In this document: one piece after another, positions 6,568 to 63,831 of the stretch
Numbering within the stretch: position 1 is the stretch's first letter
Layout of the letters: the number at the start of each line of letters is the position of its first letter
From: Liolophura sinensis
Lineage: Eukaryota; Mollusca; Polyplacophora; Chitonida; Chitonidae
Assembly: GCF_032854445.1 (NCBI RefSeq)
Contig: NC_088302.1
Span: forward strand, 8,739,338 to 8,803,337
DNA length: 64,000 nucleotides
Reading direction: 5' to 3'
Notes under the pieces: model-generated
Databases searched by the model: none
The model's input: only the letters and a program-made list of their open reading frames with translations
Told to the model about the DNA's origin: nothing
Position numbers and translations under genes: made by a program

Positions 6568-6970
6568 TAATATAATATAATATAATATAATATAATATAA
6601 TATAATATAATATAATATAATATAATATAATATAATATAATATAATATAATATAATATAATATAATATAATATAATATAATATAATATAATATAATATAA
6701 TATAATATAATATAATATAATATAATATAATATAATATAATATAATATAATATAATATAATATAATATAATATAATATAATATAATATAATATAATATAA
6801 TATAATATAATATAATATAATATAATATAATATAATATAATATAATATAATATAATATAATATAATATAATATAATATAATATAATATAATATAATATAA
6901 TATAATATAATATAATATAATATAATATAATATAATATAATATAATATAATATAATATAATATAATATAT
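6568..6970. repeat. Pure (TATAA)n pentanucleotide microsatellite, about 80 copies
   Basis: Roughly 400 bases repeat the pentamer TATAA without any visible interruption. Because the minus-strand permutations lack stop codons in one phase, a 150-codon open frame of YYIIL repeats crosses the array; this is a by-product of the repeat. The purity over 80 copies points to recent expansion, or to a copy number fixed by assembly rather than measured. Confidence 0.97.
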
Positions 6971-53392: not shown

Positions 53393-53475
53393 ACCTCATG
53401 TGTGTGGCCCCCGGGTACATCGTTACTGCTGCCCTGGATGGTCCCCTTCCCCTGGTGGCAACAGGTGTATGCAAC
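53393..53475 (+). CDS. Fibrillin, coding exon 2 (N-terminal unique region)
   Basis: This 83-base exon completes G54 and encodes residues 55-81: [16 protein letters not shown] followed by [11 protein letters not shown]. The C58-G, C66-C67-P-G-W and GGNRC78 pattern is that of the fibrillin unique N-terminal region (human LKGPNVCGSRYNAYCCPGW...GGNQC). The acceptor phase is 2 and the donor GTAAGT at 53476 is phase 1. The exon length equals the 83 bases I recall for the second FBN1 coding exon. The segment mediates N-terminal interactions in fibrillin assembly in vertebrates. The other two frames do not give a family match. Confidence 0.9.
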
Positions 53476-53599
53476 GTAAGTATCTGCTAAACAAAAATCA
53501 AACCGCATACCTCTGTCTTATTGCAATGACAAATTATAATTAAGATAAAAAAAAACAAGGAGGAGGTGGGTGTGCTATGTACATATGGACATTTAATGT

Positions 53600-54178
53600 C
53601 ATAAAGTTAAATTTTAAAGTGTTGAAATGAAACAACATGTTAATTTCTTAAAAGTGTGAGTGTTGTAAATATGGTCATTAATATATTTTTTATTTTTCTT
53701 AAAGAGAAAAAGACATGAAAATAAGTTTTGTACGGGGTGGGTATTTGGGACGACCTTTAGGTATATATACTAGTTGTTGTTGTGTAATAATATTATAAAG
53801 GAGGATGTAACACATGTTTAACAGTATGTGCACTAGAATTTGGTTGTTTAAGCCACAAATATGTTCACCCTGAATTTTGATCACATTTATATTTTTAATA
53901 TATTCGTCAATATTATCATAATTCAGAAGTCATATGTTTGGATACAAACAACAAATTTACATTCAAATAAATTTACTAGACACGCATCACATCCTTGTTT
54001 AGAATAGTATTATGCAGCAGTCATAAATACCAAAAGGCGGTCCCAAATAAACATATTTATATAATACTCCTGAAAAAAAAATCGAAAAAGTATTATAGAC
54101 CATATTTTCAAATATGTTTGACGCTCTTTTATATGATTTTTACGTCATTTGTATGTTTTGTTCTGCTTTAAAATGTTA
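53600..54178. mobile_element. Foldback element, copy 2
   Basis: Inverted pairs include GGTATTTGGGACGACCTTTAGG (53740-53761) against CCAAAAGGCGGTCCCAAATA (about 54031-54050), and outer arm matches around AAATATGGTC. Size and arm blocks correspond to the element at 12320-12902. Confidence 0.6.
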
Positions 54179-54966
54179 CACCGCTTAATGATCGCGTGTA
54201 AGTAAGATTACAACACACTTTTCAAATTTATAAGGCGAAAGGCACTATGAATTAGGTGCGGAATACAAAACCTAAAGTGTTAACTTGATATTAAACAGTG
54301 TTAAATTAGAAGGTTTTCTTAGAATTGTGTAAAGTTTTAAAATTTTAACACTTGCGAAGTGCTAACCTAACGGTATAAATTGTTCCCATTCTGCATCACT
54401 GACAAATGTTGTATTTAACGGTATTAAGTTTGTATATTACATTCCAGTTTTCAGTGTACATCTATCTGTTTATATCCAGTACACATGTTTTCAATGATTT
54501 TGGGCGCATGGGAGCTAAAACTCCCTACAAAGCGGCATTTGGATCCCCATGGGGTGACTTGAAACTGACCCCGTCTTCAAAGCGGATCGCTGCATCTGTG
54601 TACACCGCTTTACAAACACATACTGAATAAATCAAGCACAGCAGAAAACGCCTGTAAAAAGAAGATTAGACTGAAGTATCAGATTGTACAATCACTTAAC
54701 CCCGCTGCGGGCACACGTGAAGGCATGTCGAACTTACGTCTAAGTTAACACCTCAAAAGAAATCGAGCATCTGTACAGCAAATTTGTGTACCATTATGAT
54801 TGGGTGGCAGATTGGAATCTAGCTCCCAAGAAGTGTCCACATATATGTGTCTACATATTTGTAGACAGATTTACATGCAAGGTTTATATCGTATCACGCC
54901 TCAAGCTATATACGACAGTATCATTTCCTTCAGCATCAGCGAGAGAGAGCAACTCCTCCGAGTAGC

Positions 54967-57774
54967 GACATTTCTATACATTGTCCATGAGACATTTCCA
55001 CGACTCCATACAGTGTCAGTTGGGACATTTCCACGACGTTTTACACGTGACTTTTCCACGACCCCATACTTTGTTAGTGGGGACATTTCAACGCCGCCAT
55101 ACATTGTCCACGAGGACATTTCCACGACTATATACAATGTCCACGGGGACATTTCCACGACTCCATACATTATCCACTGTGACATTTCCACGACTCCATA
55201 CATTGTCCACGGGGACATTTCCACGACTCTATACATTGTTCATGGTGACATTTCCACCACTTCATACATTGTCCACGTGGACATTTCCACGACGCCATAC
55301 ATTGTCCATGGGGACATTTCCACGACTCCATAAATTGTCCACGGTGACATTTCCACGACTTCATACGTTGTCCACGGTGACATTTCCACGACTTCATACA
55401 ATGTCCACCGTGACATTTCCACGACTTCATACAATGTCGGGGCCTCCGTGGCTAAGTTGGTTAGCTGACTTCCTCTCCGGCCGTACATGAGAAGGTTTGC
55501 CAGCAACCTGCGGACATTTCCACGACTCCATACATTGTCCACGGTGACATTTCTACGATTCCATACAATGTGCAAGGGAATATTTCCACGACTCCATAAA
55601 CTGTCCACGTGGACATTTCCACGACTCTATACTTTGTTCATGGTTACATTTCCACGACACCATACATTGTCCACGGGGACAATTCCACGACTCCATACAT
55701 TGTCCACATGGATATTTCCACGACGCCATACATTGTTCATGGTGACATTTCCACGACTCCATACATTGTCCACATAGATATTTCCACGACTCCATACATT
55801 GTCCACGAGGACATTTTCACGACTCCATACAGTGTCAGTGGGGACATTTCCACGACTCCATACATTGTCCACGTGGGTATTTCCACGACTCCATACAACG
55901 TCCATGGTGACATTTCCACGACTCCATACATTGTCCATGGTGACATTTCTACGATTCCATACAATGTGCAAGGGAATATTTCCACGACTCCATAAACTGT
56001 CCACGTGGACATTTCCACGACTCTATACTTTGTTCATGGTGACATTTCCACGACACCATACATTGTTCATGATGACATTTCCACGACTCCATACATTGTC
56101 CACATAGATATTTCCACGACTCCATACATTGTCCACGAGGACATTTCCACGACTGTATACATTGTCCACGTGGACACGACTCCATACATTGTCCACGAGG
56201 ACATTTCCACGACTCCATACATTGTCCACGAGGGCATTTCCACGACTCCATACAATGTCCATGGTGACATTTCCACGACTCCATACATTGTCTATGGTGA
56301 CATTTCCACGACTCCTTACATTGTCCACGTGGACATTTCCACGACTCCATACAATGTCCATGGTGACATTTCCACGACTCCTTACATTGTCCATGGCGAC
56401 ATTTCCACGACTCCATACAATGTCCATGGTGACATTTCCACGACTCCATACATTGTCCACGGGGACAATTCCACGACACCATACATTGTTCACGGGGACA
56501 TTTCCACGACGGCATACATTGTCCACGGGGACAATTCCACGACTCCATACATTGTCCACGTGGACACGACTCCATACATTGTCCACGTGGACATTTCCAC
56601 GACTCCATACATTGTCCACGTGGACATTTCCACGACGCCATACATTGTTCATGGCGATATTTCCACGACTCTATACATTGTCCAGATGGACATTTCCACG
56701 ACGCCATACATTGTTCATGGCGATATTTCCATGACTCTATACAATGTCCACATGGACATTTCCACGACCCCATACATTGTCCACGTGGACATTTCCACGA
56801 CTATATACTTTGTCCACGTGGACATTTCCACGACTCCATACAGTGTCAGTGGGGACATTTCCACGACTCCATACATTGTCCACGTGGGCATTTCCACGAC
56901 TCCATACAATGTCCATGGTGACATTTCCACGACTCCATACATTGTCCACGGGGACAATTCCACGACTCCATACATTGTCCACGGGGACATTTCCACGACG
57001 GCATACATTGTCCACGGGGACAATTCCACGACTCCATACATTGTCCACGGGCCATTTCCACGACTCCATACATTGTCCACGAGGACATTTCCACGACTCC
57101 ATACATTGTCCACGTGGACATTTCCACGACGCCATACATTGTTCATGGCGATATTTCCACGACTCTATACATTGTCCAGATGGACATTTCCACGACGCCA
57201 TACATTGTTCATGGCGATATTTCCATGACTCTATACAATGTCCACATGGACATTTCCACGACCCCATACATTGTCCACGTGGACATTTCCACGACTATAT
57301 ACCTTGTCCACGTGGACATTTCCACGACTCCATACAGTGTCAGTGGGGACATTTGCACGACTCCATACATTGTCCACGTGGGCATTTCCACGACTCCATA
57401 CAATGTCCATGGTGACATTTCCACGACTCCATACATTGTCCACGGGGACAATTCCACGACTCCATACATTGTCCACGGGGACATTTCCACGACTCCATAC
57501 ATTGTCCACGGGGACAATTCCACGACTCCATACATTGTCCACGGGGGCATTTCCACGACTCCATACATTGTCCACGTGGACATTTCCACGACTTCATACA
57601 TTGTCCATGGTGACATTTCCACGACGGCATACACTGTCCACGGGGACATTTCCACGACGCCATACATTGTCCATGGTGACATTTCCACGACTCCATACAT
57701 TGTCCAAGATGACATTTCCACGACTCCATACATTGTCCAAGGTGACATTTCCACGACTCCATACATTGTCCACG
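54967..57774. repeat. 33-bp satellite, about 85 copies, palindromic E-box core
   Basis: The unit is CATTGTCCACGTGGACATTT plus CCACGACTCCATA. Many copies contain the perfect 12-base palindrome GTCCACGTGGAC, centred on the E-box CACGTG; others have GTCCATGGTGAC or GTCCACGGGGAC. Because 33 is divisible by three and the unit has no stop in any frame, open frames run through the array on all six frames (the longest is 407 codons). They encode repeats such as DISTTPYIVHG, TFPRLHTLSTW and MYGVVEMSPWT. Some units lose 9 to 12 bases. A near-identical 494-bp block is duplicated (about 56647 and 57141). The array lies inside fibrillin intron 2 and is not regarded as coding. Confidence 0.95.
55437..55513 (+). 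mobile_element. Internally deleted SINE (family A) inside the satellite
   Basis: GGGGCCTCCGTGGCTAAGTT (tRNA-like head) is joined directly to CTTCCTCTCCGGCCGTACAT and CCAGCAACCTGCGGA, skipping the middle seen at 39875-40042. Satellite units resume on both sides. Confidence 0.75.
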
Positions 57775-59769
57775 GTAACTTAACCGTCCATTTCTAACCA
57801 CCGAATTTTACCTCCTGGCGTTGTATATGAAATTGTCTCGTCGAATATCTCAACTGTCCATTTAATCTTCCATGTGAAAGCCACCTTTTTAAATCTACCT
57901 TAATGAATTAAAAAAAGACCCATTTAAGAGTACATCTTTGAATTGTACCACATCTCAACTCTTGGCCCCACTCTACCTGCATTACACATTAAATATTGTA
58001 AGTATTCACAATGTTTCAAACACAAGATATTTCTAACACATTATTTAATTACTAGTAGGCATTTTCTTGCAATTCCAGCACCATTAATGAAATGATATCT
58101 TTAAAAACAACCAATTCTGACAGGGTACATTTCAGGTATGCGCTTTAATGTCTGTATTATTACTATTTGACCCATAATTCTGCAATTTTCATAAAAGTTG
58201 TGTAATATATTAATATATGATGTGTGTCAAATATCAGAGTCTTACTTTGTAAAGGTTTTATATAATTGCGAATTCAAAATGGTTATCGTTCTTTCTGGCC
58301 TATCACATATCACATCCCGCATGGTACATGACGGGGTTATAGGTCGTTTTAATAAGACATTGCTCTCATGACAGGCGAAGAGCCATAGTAGCTACAATCA
58401 AATAGCCTACAATCACTTTGTGCAAGATTGTTTGGAGCGGAAGAAAGAAATCTAACCCCGTCTGCTTTGTGCATTAGTAAAAGACAAAACATGTATCTAT
58501 AATTGAAACACACTATTGACAAATTAAACACTGATGGTTAAACCGAAATTGGGCTCTCGCCCTATAAATATTATAACAAGTTTAGACATGTTATGTCTGT
58601 ACTTCAAATAGACTCAGCCATGAGTGCACTTAGGTTTAGTGGATGAGACACGCATTCGCCGGGTGTATTAGTCTGCTACTACCACACCACGTGAACCTGG
58701 GGTGCTTAAAACACACAAAGTGCCACTTAAGAAAATCTCTGGAAAAAAGCTAAAAAAAACTCAAAGAAATAGGAAAATAGGAACATATTGAATTGTTTTT
58801 CTTTAACAAATGTCACAGGGTAGGGCCGGTCCGGAACTAAAAACTTTGACATACAATACAACCATTGTGTTTGAGTTTCAGCATTCCTATTGGACAGTTA
58901 TAGGGCTTAGTCTCACCACTGATGTCAGAATGTAGGGCGCTGTCATTTTTCTTTTCAACTCGGCCACAAAGTGGTTACCATTCCAGAGATACGTGGCTGA
59001 CATATTGTTAGAAGCAACAATGCAAAGATAGGGCTCAGGAAGTCACAGAAAAGTACCACGGTAGTTTCGCCCTCATGTAGGTCAATTTTATCAGTATATT
59101 AAAGAAATCAAGGTAAATTCAAGAAGTCATCGCAAGTCATCAGTCAGAACTTGATTTAAATAATCCCAGTATGCTGTAACTGCCCAGCGTGTTCCGAAGA
59201 TGAAGATATTTTGGTGATGGTTGCAATGTCGATCGGCAACCATGCAATTCTGTTACATATGTTAGATGACACCTATAACACGCGTGACATGATCGTAATA
59301 GGTCCGAATTTTATGATCGCATTGGCAAGGTAGTTGAAATACACTACATCAGACAGATTGTTGAACCGAATAAGCTGAATAGCTCGTTTAAATTATAATG
59401 CGTTTAATAATTGTTGCATGTTAAGATTTAAATGAGATGCATGCCTCACATCCTCGTTTGTTAACCAAGAATGACGTCTCGGTACAACGGATTCACAATG
59501 CGAGCAGATGTAATAGGACAATGCGCTTTCACACCTGAAGATGTAAAGTCTGTTGTTTCATTCCTTCCGTTGTTATGACATTCTATTGTGACTGATGACG
59601 TATAACTCATTCATCACCAGAGCACGCTTGTCAAATCGGCTTGGATCCGAATCCCTATTGCGCGGAAAAAAGGTTGGTCATATGTTATAATGTATAAATT
59701 CATACAATCATCTGCGGTAAGTATACGTGTGAATGTGAGGGTAGCCATATATGTCTATCTACAGCAAAA

Positions 59770-60377
59770 AATAAACAATGACGGTGGTCGGTAATGTCCC
59801 TGGTGTAACTCTTCGTCCTCGGCGATAGACTATGCCCAGCCGATAATGGCCTTGATGTAACTCTGGTTTCCTCTGTCCTCGGCGATATGCACAGCCAGTG
59901 GGCCTAATGTTCCTGGTATGACTCAGCCATACTACTGGTATGTGCCCAGCCAGTAACGTCCTTGGTGTAACTGGGGTTTTCTTTGTCCTTAGCGATATGC
60001 CCAGTCGGTAATGCCCCTGTGTAGCTCTGGTTTTCTCTGCCCTCCGCGATTTGCCCAGCCAGTAACGTCCTGGTTGTAACTCTGGTTTTCTATGCCCTCC
60101 GCGATTTGCCTAGCTGGTATAATGTCCCCGGTATAGTTCTGGTTTCCATTGTCCTCAGCGATATGCCCAGCCAGTAATGTCCCCGGTGTAACTCTGGTTT
60201 TATTTGTCCTCAGCGATATGCCCAGCCATTAATGGCCTTGGTGTGAGCCCTGGGTTTCTTTGTTCTCAGCGATATACCCAGTCAGTAACGTCCTTGTTGT
60301 AACTCTGGCTTTCTTTGTCCTCAGCGATATGCCCAGCCAGTAATGCTGTGCTATAACTCTGACTTTCTTTGTCCACA
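59770..60377 (+). repeat. 55-56-bp minisatellite built from the exon 3 splice acceptor
   Basis: About ten units. The typical unit reads GTAACTCTGGTTTTCTTTGT, CCTCAG, CGATATGCCCAGCCA and GTAATGTCC. The pyrimidine tract, CAG and following 15 bases match the acceptor and first 15 bases of fibrillin exon 3 (TTTGTCCACAG then CGATATGTCCAGCCG). The in-register junctions fall at about 59992, 60047, 60102, 60158, 60213, 60269, 60324 and finally 60378, the real one. An intact AG is present at 59991, 60157, 60212, 60268 and 60323; other units have GG or CG. Older units before 59940 are degraded. Confidence 0.9.
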
Positions 60378-60378
60378 G

Positions 60379-60480
60379 CGATATGTCCAGCCGGATGTGG
60401 GGACGGGACATGTGTCAGGCCAAACTCCTGTAGATGCAAAGGCGGATTTCTCGCTCCCAGCTGTGGAAACTTGAGCCCGC
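60379..60480 (+). CDS. Fibrillin, coding exon 3 (EGF-like 1)
   Basis: This 102-base exon is phase 1 at both ends (acceptor TTTGTCCACAG, donor GTAAGT at 60481). It completes P82 and encodes residues 83-115: ICPAGCGDGTCVRPNSC, RCKGGFLAPSC and GNLSP. Six cysteines (C84, C88, C93, C99, C101, C110) have EGF spacing, and CGDGxCxRPNxCxC...APSCG is the signature of the first EGF module in fibrillins. FBN1 has a 99-base exon here as I recall. It is a non-calcium-binding EGF type, without the D-x-(D/N)-E start. Its first 15 bases are repeated upstream in the minisatellite. Confidence 0.92.
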
Positions 60481-62834
60481 GTAAGTTCCTGAAAATGAAC
60501 ATGAAAGTAAGAAAGTAATGTCTGCCTCAAATGACAGGCAATAAAGAACTGTGTCTTTCTTTTTATATTTTTCTTTTACAAAAGGTAACAAAACCATGAA
60601 TTTCAGATGATTTCATATTTTTCACATTATTTACAGGCTGTGAAAGTCCATTGAAATGGTCCAGTGGCCTAGATGTAGTATAGTAGGGGTGATTTTCATA
60701 CAAATTAACTGTTTTCAAAAAGTGACGCAGAAAACACAAGGGAAATTTTTTTTATAAAAAAACGAAGTCTGCCATACTTATTAAATGTGCATGAAAATAG
60801 TTTTGGGTCAGTCATGCATAGTAATTGGACTGGAACTTATTTCCAATCATCGTGTATTTTAACTTTAAAGCTTGAACTTTGGAGAGTTCCCCCGACAAGT
60901 AGAATTCAAGATTTCTCAGAAATCTTAGCATAGGTTGGACCTACTTGGTCAGACAAAGAACACTATTTTACGTAGATGGAAATTGCACTATCCGAAGATT
61001 TTCTCTAAAAAAGCGTGGCGTCCTGGAAAATCAAAAGTCCACGAGCGCTGCTTGCGAGCTACATGTATATGCATGCTGGGTGATTATTTTCGTAGATATA
61101 TTCCTTAATTTGCTTATATATCTTTAAAAATTAAATATCTTAATTAAAAATACGCAGATTTATGTCATACCTAGTAGATTATGTCTCAGTTGTTTTGTCA
61201 GTCTAAAGACCTTGTGCATTTTACTGGTTGAATTTCGGGTGTTTAGCATGATGTCTACAGACACATTACTAGGCCTTCTGTGTTCCATGGTGGTAAAATA
61301 TTGCATGTTCGTTAATTTTTTTTATGACAGCAAAATTAGAAAAAAGTAAACAACGCAGTCCAGTAGAGGCGGATATTATAGCACCTCTGGTTACTAAAAA
61401 TATTTCAAACATTCTCATTTAACTCGTTACAAAACCCTAACCCTATCTACGTCTGAATCGTCATGGCTAGCAAAACGTGCAGCGATTCCAATTGGTATAC
61501 ACCCCGTGTCTTTCCCGATTAGGAGTTTGTAATGTGGTCGGTCTGAATTCAACTTAGACCGGAGCCTACAATTTTCCTGGCCTGTTCCACAGTCATTTCT
61601 AACTTTAGGGCGGTTGTAGGCCTAAGTCAATAAACAAAACTTCGTCACATTGGCTATAGTATCAGTAATGTTTGTGTACTGGGAGTTACAATTTTGATAC
61701 GCTAGTCCTCAGATATCATTCGTGAGTTCATCCAAATGTTAGCGTAAAACTAAGCACTGAAATCAAATTTTGACTTAAAACAGAGCTTGATACATTTAGC
61801 GAAATTGGCTTCGAACCAAAAGCAGCTATTCGTCTAGCTAATGGCGAAGTGGCCAGGATGTACGTGTGGTGCCATCTACACCGCTTCTCGTAAGCGCTCA
61901 TCGCATGTAGAACAAGATTTCAGCAATCACAAAACATCATTTACATTGTCAAGAAAAAGGCATGGGTGAGATTAGACCTGATGAGTACTAGTCCTCCGGA
62001 GAGAAACTAAAACAAATCCGAAGTCTGATAGTAGATTACACAATTTCTGTGACACTGACATATCAAGGCCTCGAGATATCCAAAATGTTCGTAATCAGAA
62101 TGCCACAAATTAGACCCCACCAGTTCACCTTAATACAAACTCTGTTTACTGTTCATATTTGTGCCCAAAAGAAATGCTGACTCCACTTTTCTTTTTCTCA
62201 CACTGTCAACATTTGGTGTATTTGAAATGAAAGCAAAGAACGAAACTGTCAGAAAATAAATTTCACATCGATAAGATACAGATGGAACCTTCATATAAAG
62301 TATTCTTATGTTGGACAAAGGATTAACATTACAACAAATGTTTAAACTTGTATGAAAGGAGAAAGTTGTGTGGTCTTCCCGGATAGCTCTCTGAGATATT
62401 GGAATGTTTTAGAAACTTGTGTTTGTGGGTTCGAATTTCACTGTACCATACACCAATCAAAAGCGCGCTCAGGTGGTACAGCTTACAGATCGTCACCCAT
62501 CACCACTCAAACCACAAACTCGCAAGCTTGAATTCTTGAAAAATTATCAACTGTGCAGACAATAGCGTGACGTCACAGTAAATGTTTAAGTATTGGTATC
62601 AAAAGCATATAGGTAATGGTGTGAAAAATATCTGTTATGACCTACTAAACAGTACACTTAATTGTATGTTAACTTTCTCTAAGCGGTCTTCATTCTTCAC
62701 TTGAGCTACATGGCACTTTTTGTGATAAATGTCCTTTTAAAAAAGCCTTTGTGTGCTAAATTTATGGGTTTTCTTTATGTACTGGTAATGTCAACATGAA
62801 GTGTAAATGATTCCATCTGTTGCCATGGTTACAG
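60481..62834 (+). other. Fibrillin intron 3
   Basis: This 2.35-kb phase-1 intron has no recognisable gene. A tRNA-like sequence lies at about 62377-62450. The acceptor is TGGTTACAG. Confidence 0.8.
62377..62450 (+). mobile_element. tRNA-like SINE head or pseudo-tRNA
   Basis: CCCGGATAGCTCTCTGAG resembles an A-box and D-arm and GTGGGTTCGAATTTCACTG a B-box and T-arm about 50 bases later. The acceptor stem does not pair well, so a functional tRNA is unlikely. Confidence 0.4.
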
Positions 62835-62927
62835 GAGGCTGTTCTGTTAGATGTATGAACGGAGGATCATGTCAAGGGTCAACGTGTAACTGTGTCCCGG
62901 GTTTCACAGGACCAATATGTGCTCAAC
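62835..62927 (+). CDS. Fibrillin, coding exon 4 (EGF-like 2)
   Basis: This 93-base exon, phase 1 at both ends (donor GTATGT at 62928), completes R116 and encodes residues 117-146: GCSVRCMNGGSCQG, STCNCVPGFTGPIC and AQ. Six cysteines have EGF spacing. RCMNGGSC matches the second fibrillin EGF module (human IRCMNGGSCSDDHC). The FBN1 counterpart is 96 bases as I recall. CVPGFTGPIC is the usual EGF C-terminal loop. Confidence 0.92.
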
Positions 62928-63736: not shown

Positions 63737-63831
63737 CGATCTGCTCCAGTGGTGCCTGAATGGGGGACGATGTATTGGTCCACAGAAATGTGCCTGTATT
63801 TATGGATTCACTGGGAACAGATGCCAGACAG
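63737..63831 (+). pseudogene. Fibrillin, coding exon 5 (EGF-like 3), frameshifted by one base
   Basis: In the frame inherited from exon 4 the exon reads PICSSG and then GCC TGA, a stop at about 63757. In the +1 frame it reads [16 protein letters not shown] and [11 protein letters not shown], the third fibrillin EGF module (human [25 protein letters not shown]). The two halves overlap at CAGTGGTGCC (63748-63755), where one base seems missing. The exon is 95 bases, but flanking phases (1 and 1) require a multiple of three, and 96 is the size I recall for FBN1. The donor is GTAGAG at 63832, weaker than the others. It is either an assembly error or a real frameshift that would truncate the protein at residue 153. 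Confidence 0.8.

Follow-up and report, generated by a model that had tools for sequence, protein, structure and literature searches.

Tandem repeats of an intron-exon boundary that lie on the intron side are known in amphioxus, where they have been termed mirages and were found in the globin genes BflGb6 and BflGb9 (PMC3087553). The repeated segment of BflGb6 comprises the 3' end of the intron and the 5' part of exon 2 in units of 150-160 bp, with six units in one haplotype and three in another, and the units of Adh3 are 10-72 bp long. The AG or GT is kept in many, not all, of the repeats, and RT-PCR suggests that splicing is not interfered with. Array length is described as differing between haplotypes or cells, and the inner units as homogenised, with those at the edges left out of this process. 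Mirages were proposed to be possibly general in cephalochordates and to provide raw material for new introns (PMC3087553). A second paper adds PGBD5 as a further amphioxus mirage, cites Adh and TnC and describes splicing as undisturbed (PMC3902484). According to these two papers, acceptors as well as donors can be repeated.

Here we describe a minisatellite at an intron-exon boundary of a chiton fibrillin gene. Its units span the boundary, the authentic boundary (placed by homology) forms one end of the array, and the splice signal is intact in many units though not in every one. As in BflGb6, the 3' end of the intron is repeated together with the 5' part of the exon. Unlike the amphioxus cases, the host is a mollusc and not a cephalochordate, the unit is ~55 bp rather than the 150-160 bp of BflGb6 or the 10-72 bp of Adh3, and the units of the inner part are only 70-87% alike. 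The array fits the description of a mirage, in a phylum for which the literature we searched, with few subscription papers covered, yielded no report of one.

A minisatellite that multiplies a splice site is also said to occur in human G1P3/IFI6, where a short unit carries multiple splice donors that were reportedly used; that case differs from the present one in being on the donor side. Human genes in segmental duplications contain variable internal tandem repeats at exon-intron boundaries, the position that the chiton minisatellite also occupies, and these can alter splicing (PMC2812944). Those repeats vary among paralogs and give transcripts with novel introns, whereas the chiton locus is single-copy. 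In addition, 792 human introns were counted in 262 tandem repeats (PMC10809524). The dual-specific splice sites of polyubiquitin type described there resemble the chiton array in having one splice signal per repeat unit. They lie, however, in coding repeats with an AGGT core in each unit that serves as donor or acceptor, whereas the chiton array is intronic, offers acceptors only, and its AG-bearing units read AG|CGATA.

The fibrillin gene and the structure of the array

The window, that is, the whole stretch of 64,000 nucleotides that was analysed, contains the following exons around the array ("exon 3" is the numbering of the preliminary description):

53393-53475, forward strand: preceding exon, fibrillin unique N-terminal domain; its final base C and the CG of the next exon form a Pro codon
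60379-60480, forward strand: EGF-type fibrillin exon ("exon 3"), 102 nt, with the donor GTAAGT from 60481
62835-62927, forward strand: following EGF exon

The assignment of the gene to fibrillin, made in the preliminary description from the letters only, held up. The Pfam domain Fibrillin_U_N was matched with 36.2 bits (cut-off 26.2; E 6.1e-9), and human fibrillin-1 (2m74) was matched with E 6.4e-28 across the full 93-residue query made of the three exons. The frame across the 53475/60379 junction reads Q-P-I-C, and fibrillin-1 has P-I-C at this place. Because of the reading frame and the homology to fibrillin-1, we place the true acceptor at 60378|60379, so that the last unit of the array opens the fibrillin exon in frame, as had been proposed. 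Further downstream, the pattern of calcium-binding EGF exons yielded 60 exons with in-phase AG and GT, of which the last ends at 142,319 (window-based numbering); coordinates marked g below refer to the window joined to the next 140 kb of the same contig.

Some features of the gene are recorded here in their own right. In the next EGF exon in the window (63737-63830) the reading frame seems to be broken close to the exon start, either through an assembly error or through a real change. Judged by eye from the translations, ~18 kb of the gene occurs twice in tandem with near-identical exons (g91524-109605 and g113754-131178), which are either haplotypes left unmerged or a true duplication within the gene. 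A 24-bp array that abuts an acceptor has 6.1 copies in one of these two repeats and 7.6 in the other.

The intron that ends at the boundary carries these repeats:

~59785-60394, forward strand: degenerate minisatellite spanning the fibrillin intron-exon boundary, 11 units; the left edge is approximate
59943-60392, forward strand: part of this array detected by the tandem repeat finder (TRF), period 55, 8.2 copies, 78% matches
54976-57775, forward strand: another minisatellite, away from the boundaries, 33 bp, 85.5 copies (TRF)

The TRF result bears out the tandem period that had been read from the letters. Direct reading resolves each unit into ~39 nt of intron end and 16 nt of exon start, all in register; the units are 54-57 nt long from 59992 on and 55-61 nt long in the three leftmost, older ones. 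The junctions fall at 59821 (possibly off by a few bases, as the best match of the scan lies at 59827), 59882, 59937, 59992, 60046, 60101, 60158, 60213, 60269 and 60324, with the true one at 60378. Six of the eight junctions first listed (59992, 60158, 60213, 60269, 60324 and 60378) are therefore retained and two, given as 60047 and 60102, were one base off; the three leftmost, degenerate units are additions to the original list.

The claim that the units copy the fibrillin splice acceptor was supported by an in-register scan, in which units from 59992 on agree with the exon start in 12-14 of its 16 bases. All 11 sites within 59700-60400 with at least 11/16 matches, the true exon included, belong to the array. 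Between 59770 and 60378 we counted eight matches of at least 12/16 and ten of at least 11/16, compared with three and 22, respectively, on the forward strand of the other ~203 kb of sequence. Eight matches of at least 12/16 in the array against three in all the rest rule out chance as the source of the units.

By direct reading, the AG is intact in five of the ten upstream units (59992, 60158, 60213, 60269 and 60324), the number first reported, and the units at 60046 and 60101 have CCTCCG where AG is expected. Units of the inner part are 70-87% alike in pairwise comparison, with a few pairs at 0.68. Compared with the consensus, the seven inner units (59992-60324) have identities of 0.80-0.95 and the three leftmost of 0.59, 0.79 and 0.59; the unit of the true exon, at 0.82, lies inside the inner range.

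When 59770-60460 was used as a query against the genome, the single match was the query itself, and a dispersed satellite was rejected on this ground; the same search revealed no second haplotype of the locus. A known RNA family was also rejected, as no Rfam family reached its gathering score within the window. Elsewhere in the window, positions 6568-6969 hold a perfect (TAATA) microsatellite of 80 copies.

Decoy acceptors and the choice of splice site

We scored the splice sites with matrices (PWM) derived from the calcium-binding EGF exons of the same fibrillin gene, which supplied 43 distinct acceptors and 33 distinct donors. The acceptor matrix is a small one in which a C within the pyrimidine tract counts against a site, and only the ranking within arrays is used. 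The acceptors in question are:

59991-59992, forward strand: decoy AG, PWM 6.4, with TAAC 22 nt before the 3' splice site
60157-60158, forward strand: decoy AG, PWM 5.3, without TAAC at that place
60212-60213, forward strand: decoy AG, PWM 6.7, with TAAC 22 nt before the 3' splice site
60268-60269, forward strand: decoy AG, PWM 11.3, without TAAC at that place
60323-60324, forward strand: nearest decoy AG, PWM 6.9, with TAAC 22 nt before the 3' splice site
60377-60378, forward strand: true acceptor AG as placed by frame and homology, PWM 5.2

None of the five AG decoys scores lower than the true acceptor, whose level is reached by only six of the 208 other AGs of the intron (53500-59780). The true unit has a branch-point-like TAAC 22 nt upstream, as do the decoys at 59992, 60213 and 60324. 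The core signal thus does not mark the true site, and exclusive use of 60378 cannot be predicted from that signal alone. Translation confirmed the proposed outcome of using the nearest decoy: read-through from 60324 gives the ten residues P-I-C-P-A-S-N-A-V-L and then TAA. A stop is met in the same way from each of the ten upstream junctions.

It is possible that splicing is tuned by the copy number of the array. In its full form this reading would make the array a regulatory dial, in which the decoys compete with 60378 and the number of copies sets the share of premature stops and with it the output of fibrillin. The scores of the five decoys, the TAAC that three of them have at the same place as the true unit and the stop brought by decoy use all speak in its favour. 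However, AG stands in only half of the upstream units, and its A is the least conserved of the 55 columns of the array, which may be due to chance or may be a trace of selection against decoys. In amphioxus, moreover, comparable arrays were reported without disturbance of splicing (PMC3087553, PMC3902484). We consider such a dial quite unlikely.

Each unit could also be read as a cryptic micro-exon of ~15 nt with its own acceptor and donor, the array being a set of alternatives, given that the acceptor is followed ~15 nt on by GTAATG or GTAACG in units. Three GTs of the array score 7.9, 7.2 and 6.8, above the 5th percentile of the donors of the gene (5.5). These three, however, lie away from the place of the recurrent donor, which itself scores 3.5, below that percentile and below the median of 9.4. 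The donor test is a weak one, because the true exon donor scores only 4.1 on this matrix; its score is pushed down because the exon ends in C, whereas the exons of that type in the matrix end in G. Overall, a micro-exon array is very improbable.

Boundary arrays elsewhere in the genome

The fibrillin gene holds four further boundary arrays beside the present one:

g70858-72631 (C8:8810195-8811968): donor array, exon 3' end with the donor CAG|GTAAGG, 54 bp x 33.0
g74948-76055 (C8:8814285-8815392): acceptor array, GACAG|ACATGAAT, ending in the exon at g76048, 31 bp x 35.8
g84314-86040: degenerate donor array 3' of an exon, 41-48 bp; the TRF start is outside the exon, and the likeness to exon end and donor was judged by eye
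g135457-135850: donor array, exon end with the donor TCG|GTAAGA, 98 bp x 4.0, 99% alike

The strength of the decoys differs among them. In the 54-bp array, the score of the true donor is equalled or exceeded by 11 of 183 GTs, compared with none of 360 in the nearby intron; in the 31-bp array, 19 of the 63 decoy AGs equal or exceed the true site. Three decoys of the 98-bp array equal the true donor; none of the 153 GTs in the degenerate array is as strong as its true donor.

We also sampled four myosin genes (57 kb), which were picked as compact match clusters before their own repeats had been seen, although the first two had given arrays before the second two were chosen. Three of the four contain boundary arrays, four arrays in all:

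C1:26644541-26644732: donor array, exon end with the donor GTTG|GTAAGT, 31 bp x 6.2
C2:5376682-5378505: acceptor array, 32 bp x 42.9; past a run of N the same unit continues in another block
within C11:2668701-2684500, reverse strand: donor array with 12 copies of AAG|GTGAGT, 82 bp x 12.7; the exon was recognised from its reading frame
within C11:2668701-2684500, reverse strand: second donor array of the same gene, after another exon, 32 bp; how it relates to the exon end was assessed by eye

The array on C2 has 46 perfect copies of TTTGTAG|GTTTGAG outside the run of 200 N, the last of which opens an exon reading GESGAGKT, which we take to be the myosin P-loop. In the fourth myosin gene there are arrays near junctions, none of which was judged to span one. 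Reading into the decoys led to a stop for 63/63 AGs of the 31-bp fibrillin array, 11/11 CAG|GTAA donors of the 54-bp array, 45/45 perfect myosin decoy acceptors and two of the three decoys of the 98-bp array.

In total, the five genes of this sample (fibrillin and the four myosins) contain nine boundary arrays, three at acceptors and six at donors. The preliminary description had called the expansion of a junction into an array unusual; this found no support, as the kind is known in amphioxus and human and recurs nine times here. None of 11 sugar-transporter loci, some of them close neighbours, shows a boundary array at the matched exon stretch, no TRF row lying within 1 kb of it; this and the fourth myosin gene speak against wide prevalence. 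The small sample suggests that boundary arrays are not rare in this chiton. The arrays at the other fibrillin and myosin boundaries share no common theme, a further point against the regulatory dial proposed for the present one.

In three fibrillin arrays the dinucleotide is retained in 6/10, 23/32 and 32/34 units, and the means for adjacent pairs are 7.2, 28.8 and 28.2; the first of these counts is that of the script's decomposition of the present array, for which we otherwise use the 5/10 of direct reading. The AG and GT columns show no sign of decoy upkeep.

Nor was a preference of arrays for junctions found in fibrillin by random placement, a test of one gene with low power in which a modest preference could hide. 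It covered 73 exons, with 9,211 exonic nt in 88,927 nt; 13 of the exons were placed by hand, at least five of them with ends that are only approximate. Four of 18 merged TRF arrays span a boundary; the mean was 6.2 in random placement (P 0.95) and 2.9 when placements that swallowed an exon were rejected (P 0.34). Arrays with an edge inside an exon likewise number four, against a random mean of 3.3-3.4 (P 0.42-0.46). As the boundary-spanning count is no higher than under random placement, within the low power of the test, random births of minisatellites and pruning by selection on exons suffice.

A separate observation concerns the assembly. Contig C99 (108,685 bp) has seven COX1 matches ~15.5 kb apart and consists of head-to-tail mitochondrial DNA, probably as an assembly product. 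Judged from reading frames (table 5), cox3, nad3, nad2, cox1, cox2 and atp6 lie on one strand of the mitochondrial contig and nad5, nad4, nad4L, cob, nad6 and nad1 on the other, presumably the ancestral mollusc order.

Origin of the array and what it means

The array is very probably a mirage in the amphioxus sense: a neutral minisatellite that captured an intron-exon boundary and is spliced at 60378. It would have been born by local tandem duplication of the intron-exon boundary in the chiton fibrillin gene and then have grown and eroded like an ordinary intronic minisatellite, with the upstream copies as by-products. Since the bases of the exon start encode residues common to fibrillin-1, copying went from the exon into the intron rather than in the opposite direction. 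At its left edge the array has GTCGG|TAATG, and the unit ends on the exon side with GCCGG|ATGTG. The CGG common to both would fit birth by slippage or microhomology, a likeness that is only suggestive because terminal units may have been lost. That a foreign minisatellite moved into the intron and replaced the start of the exon, the likeness owing nothing to duplication of the boundary, is highly improbable: the intron is indeed rich in minisatellites, as the 33-bp array of 85.5 copies attests, but human fibrillin-1 has residues in common with those encoded by the exon start, and the genome search matched this locus only.

Under the mirage reading, the last unit would be the functional acceptor because, by frame and homology, no other unit runs on into the exon body with its donor at 60481. 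Correct splicing is likely owed to the nearness of this exon body and donor (exon definition). The AG-bearing copies would be splice-competent by their core signal and most likely outcompeted by the exon-proximal module. The premature stop that translation shows for decoy use would probably lead to nonsense-mediated decay.

A wider reading would have chiton genes pervaded by splice-site minisatellites. The spliceosome would then routinely have to rely on context alone to pick one site from up to dozens of equal copies, and the length of an array would be a heritable, rapidly mutating dial that governs mis-splicing and nonsense-mediated decay in matrix and motor genes. We regard this as unlikely.

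The value of the finding lies in the apparent frequency of boundary arrays in a chiton. Nine of them in five mollusc genes, one with 46 perfect acceptor copies, suggest that minisatellite-rich introns in distant animals ordinarily give rise to such arrays. The arrays are also natural constructs for the question of how the spliceosome selects one among many sites of identical core sequence.
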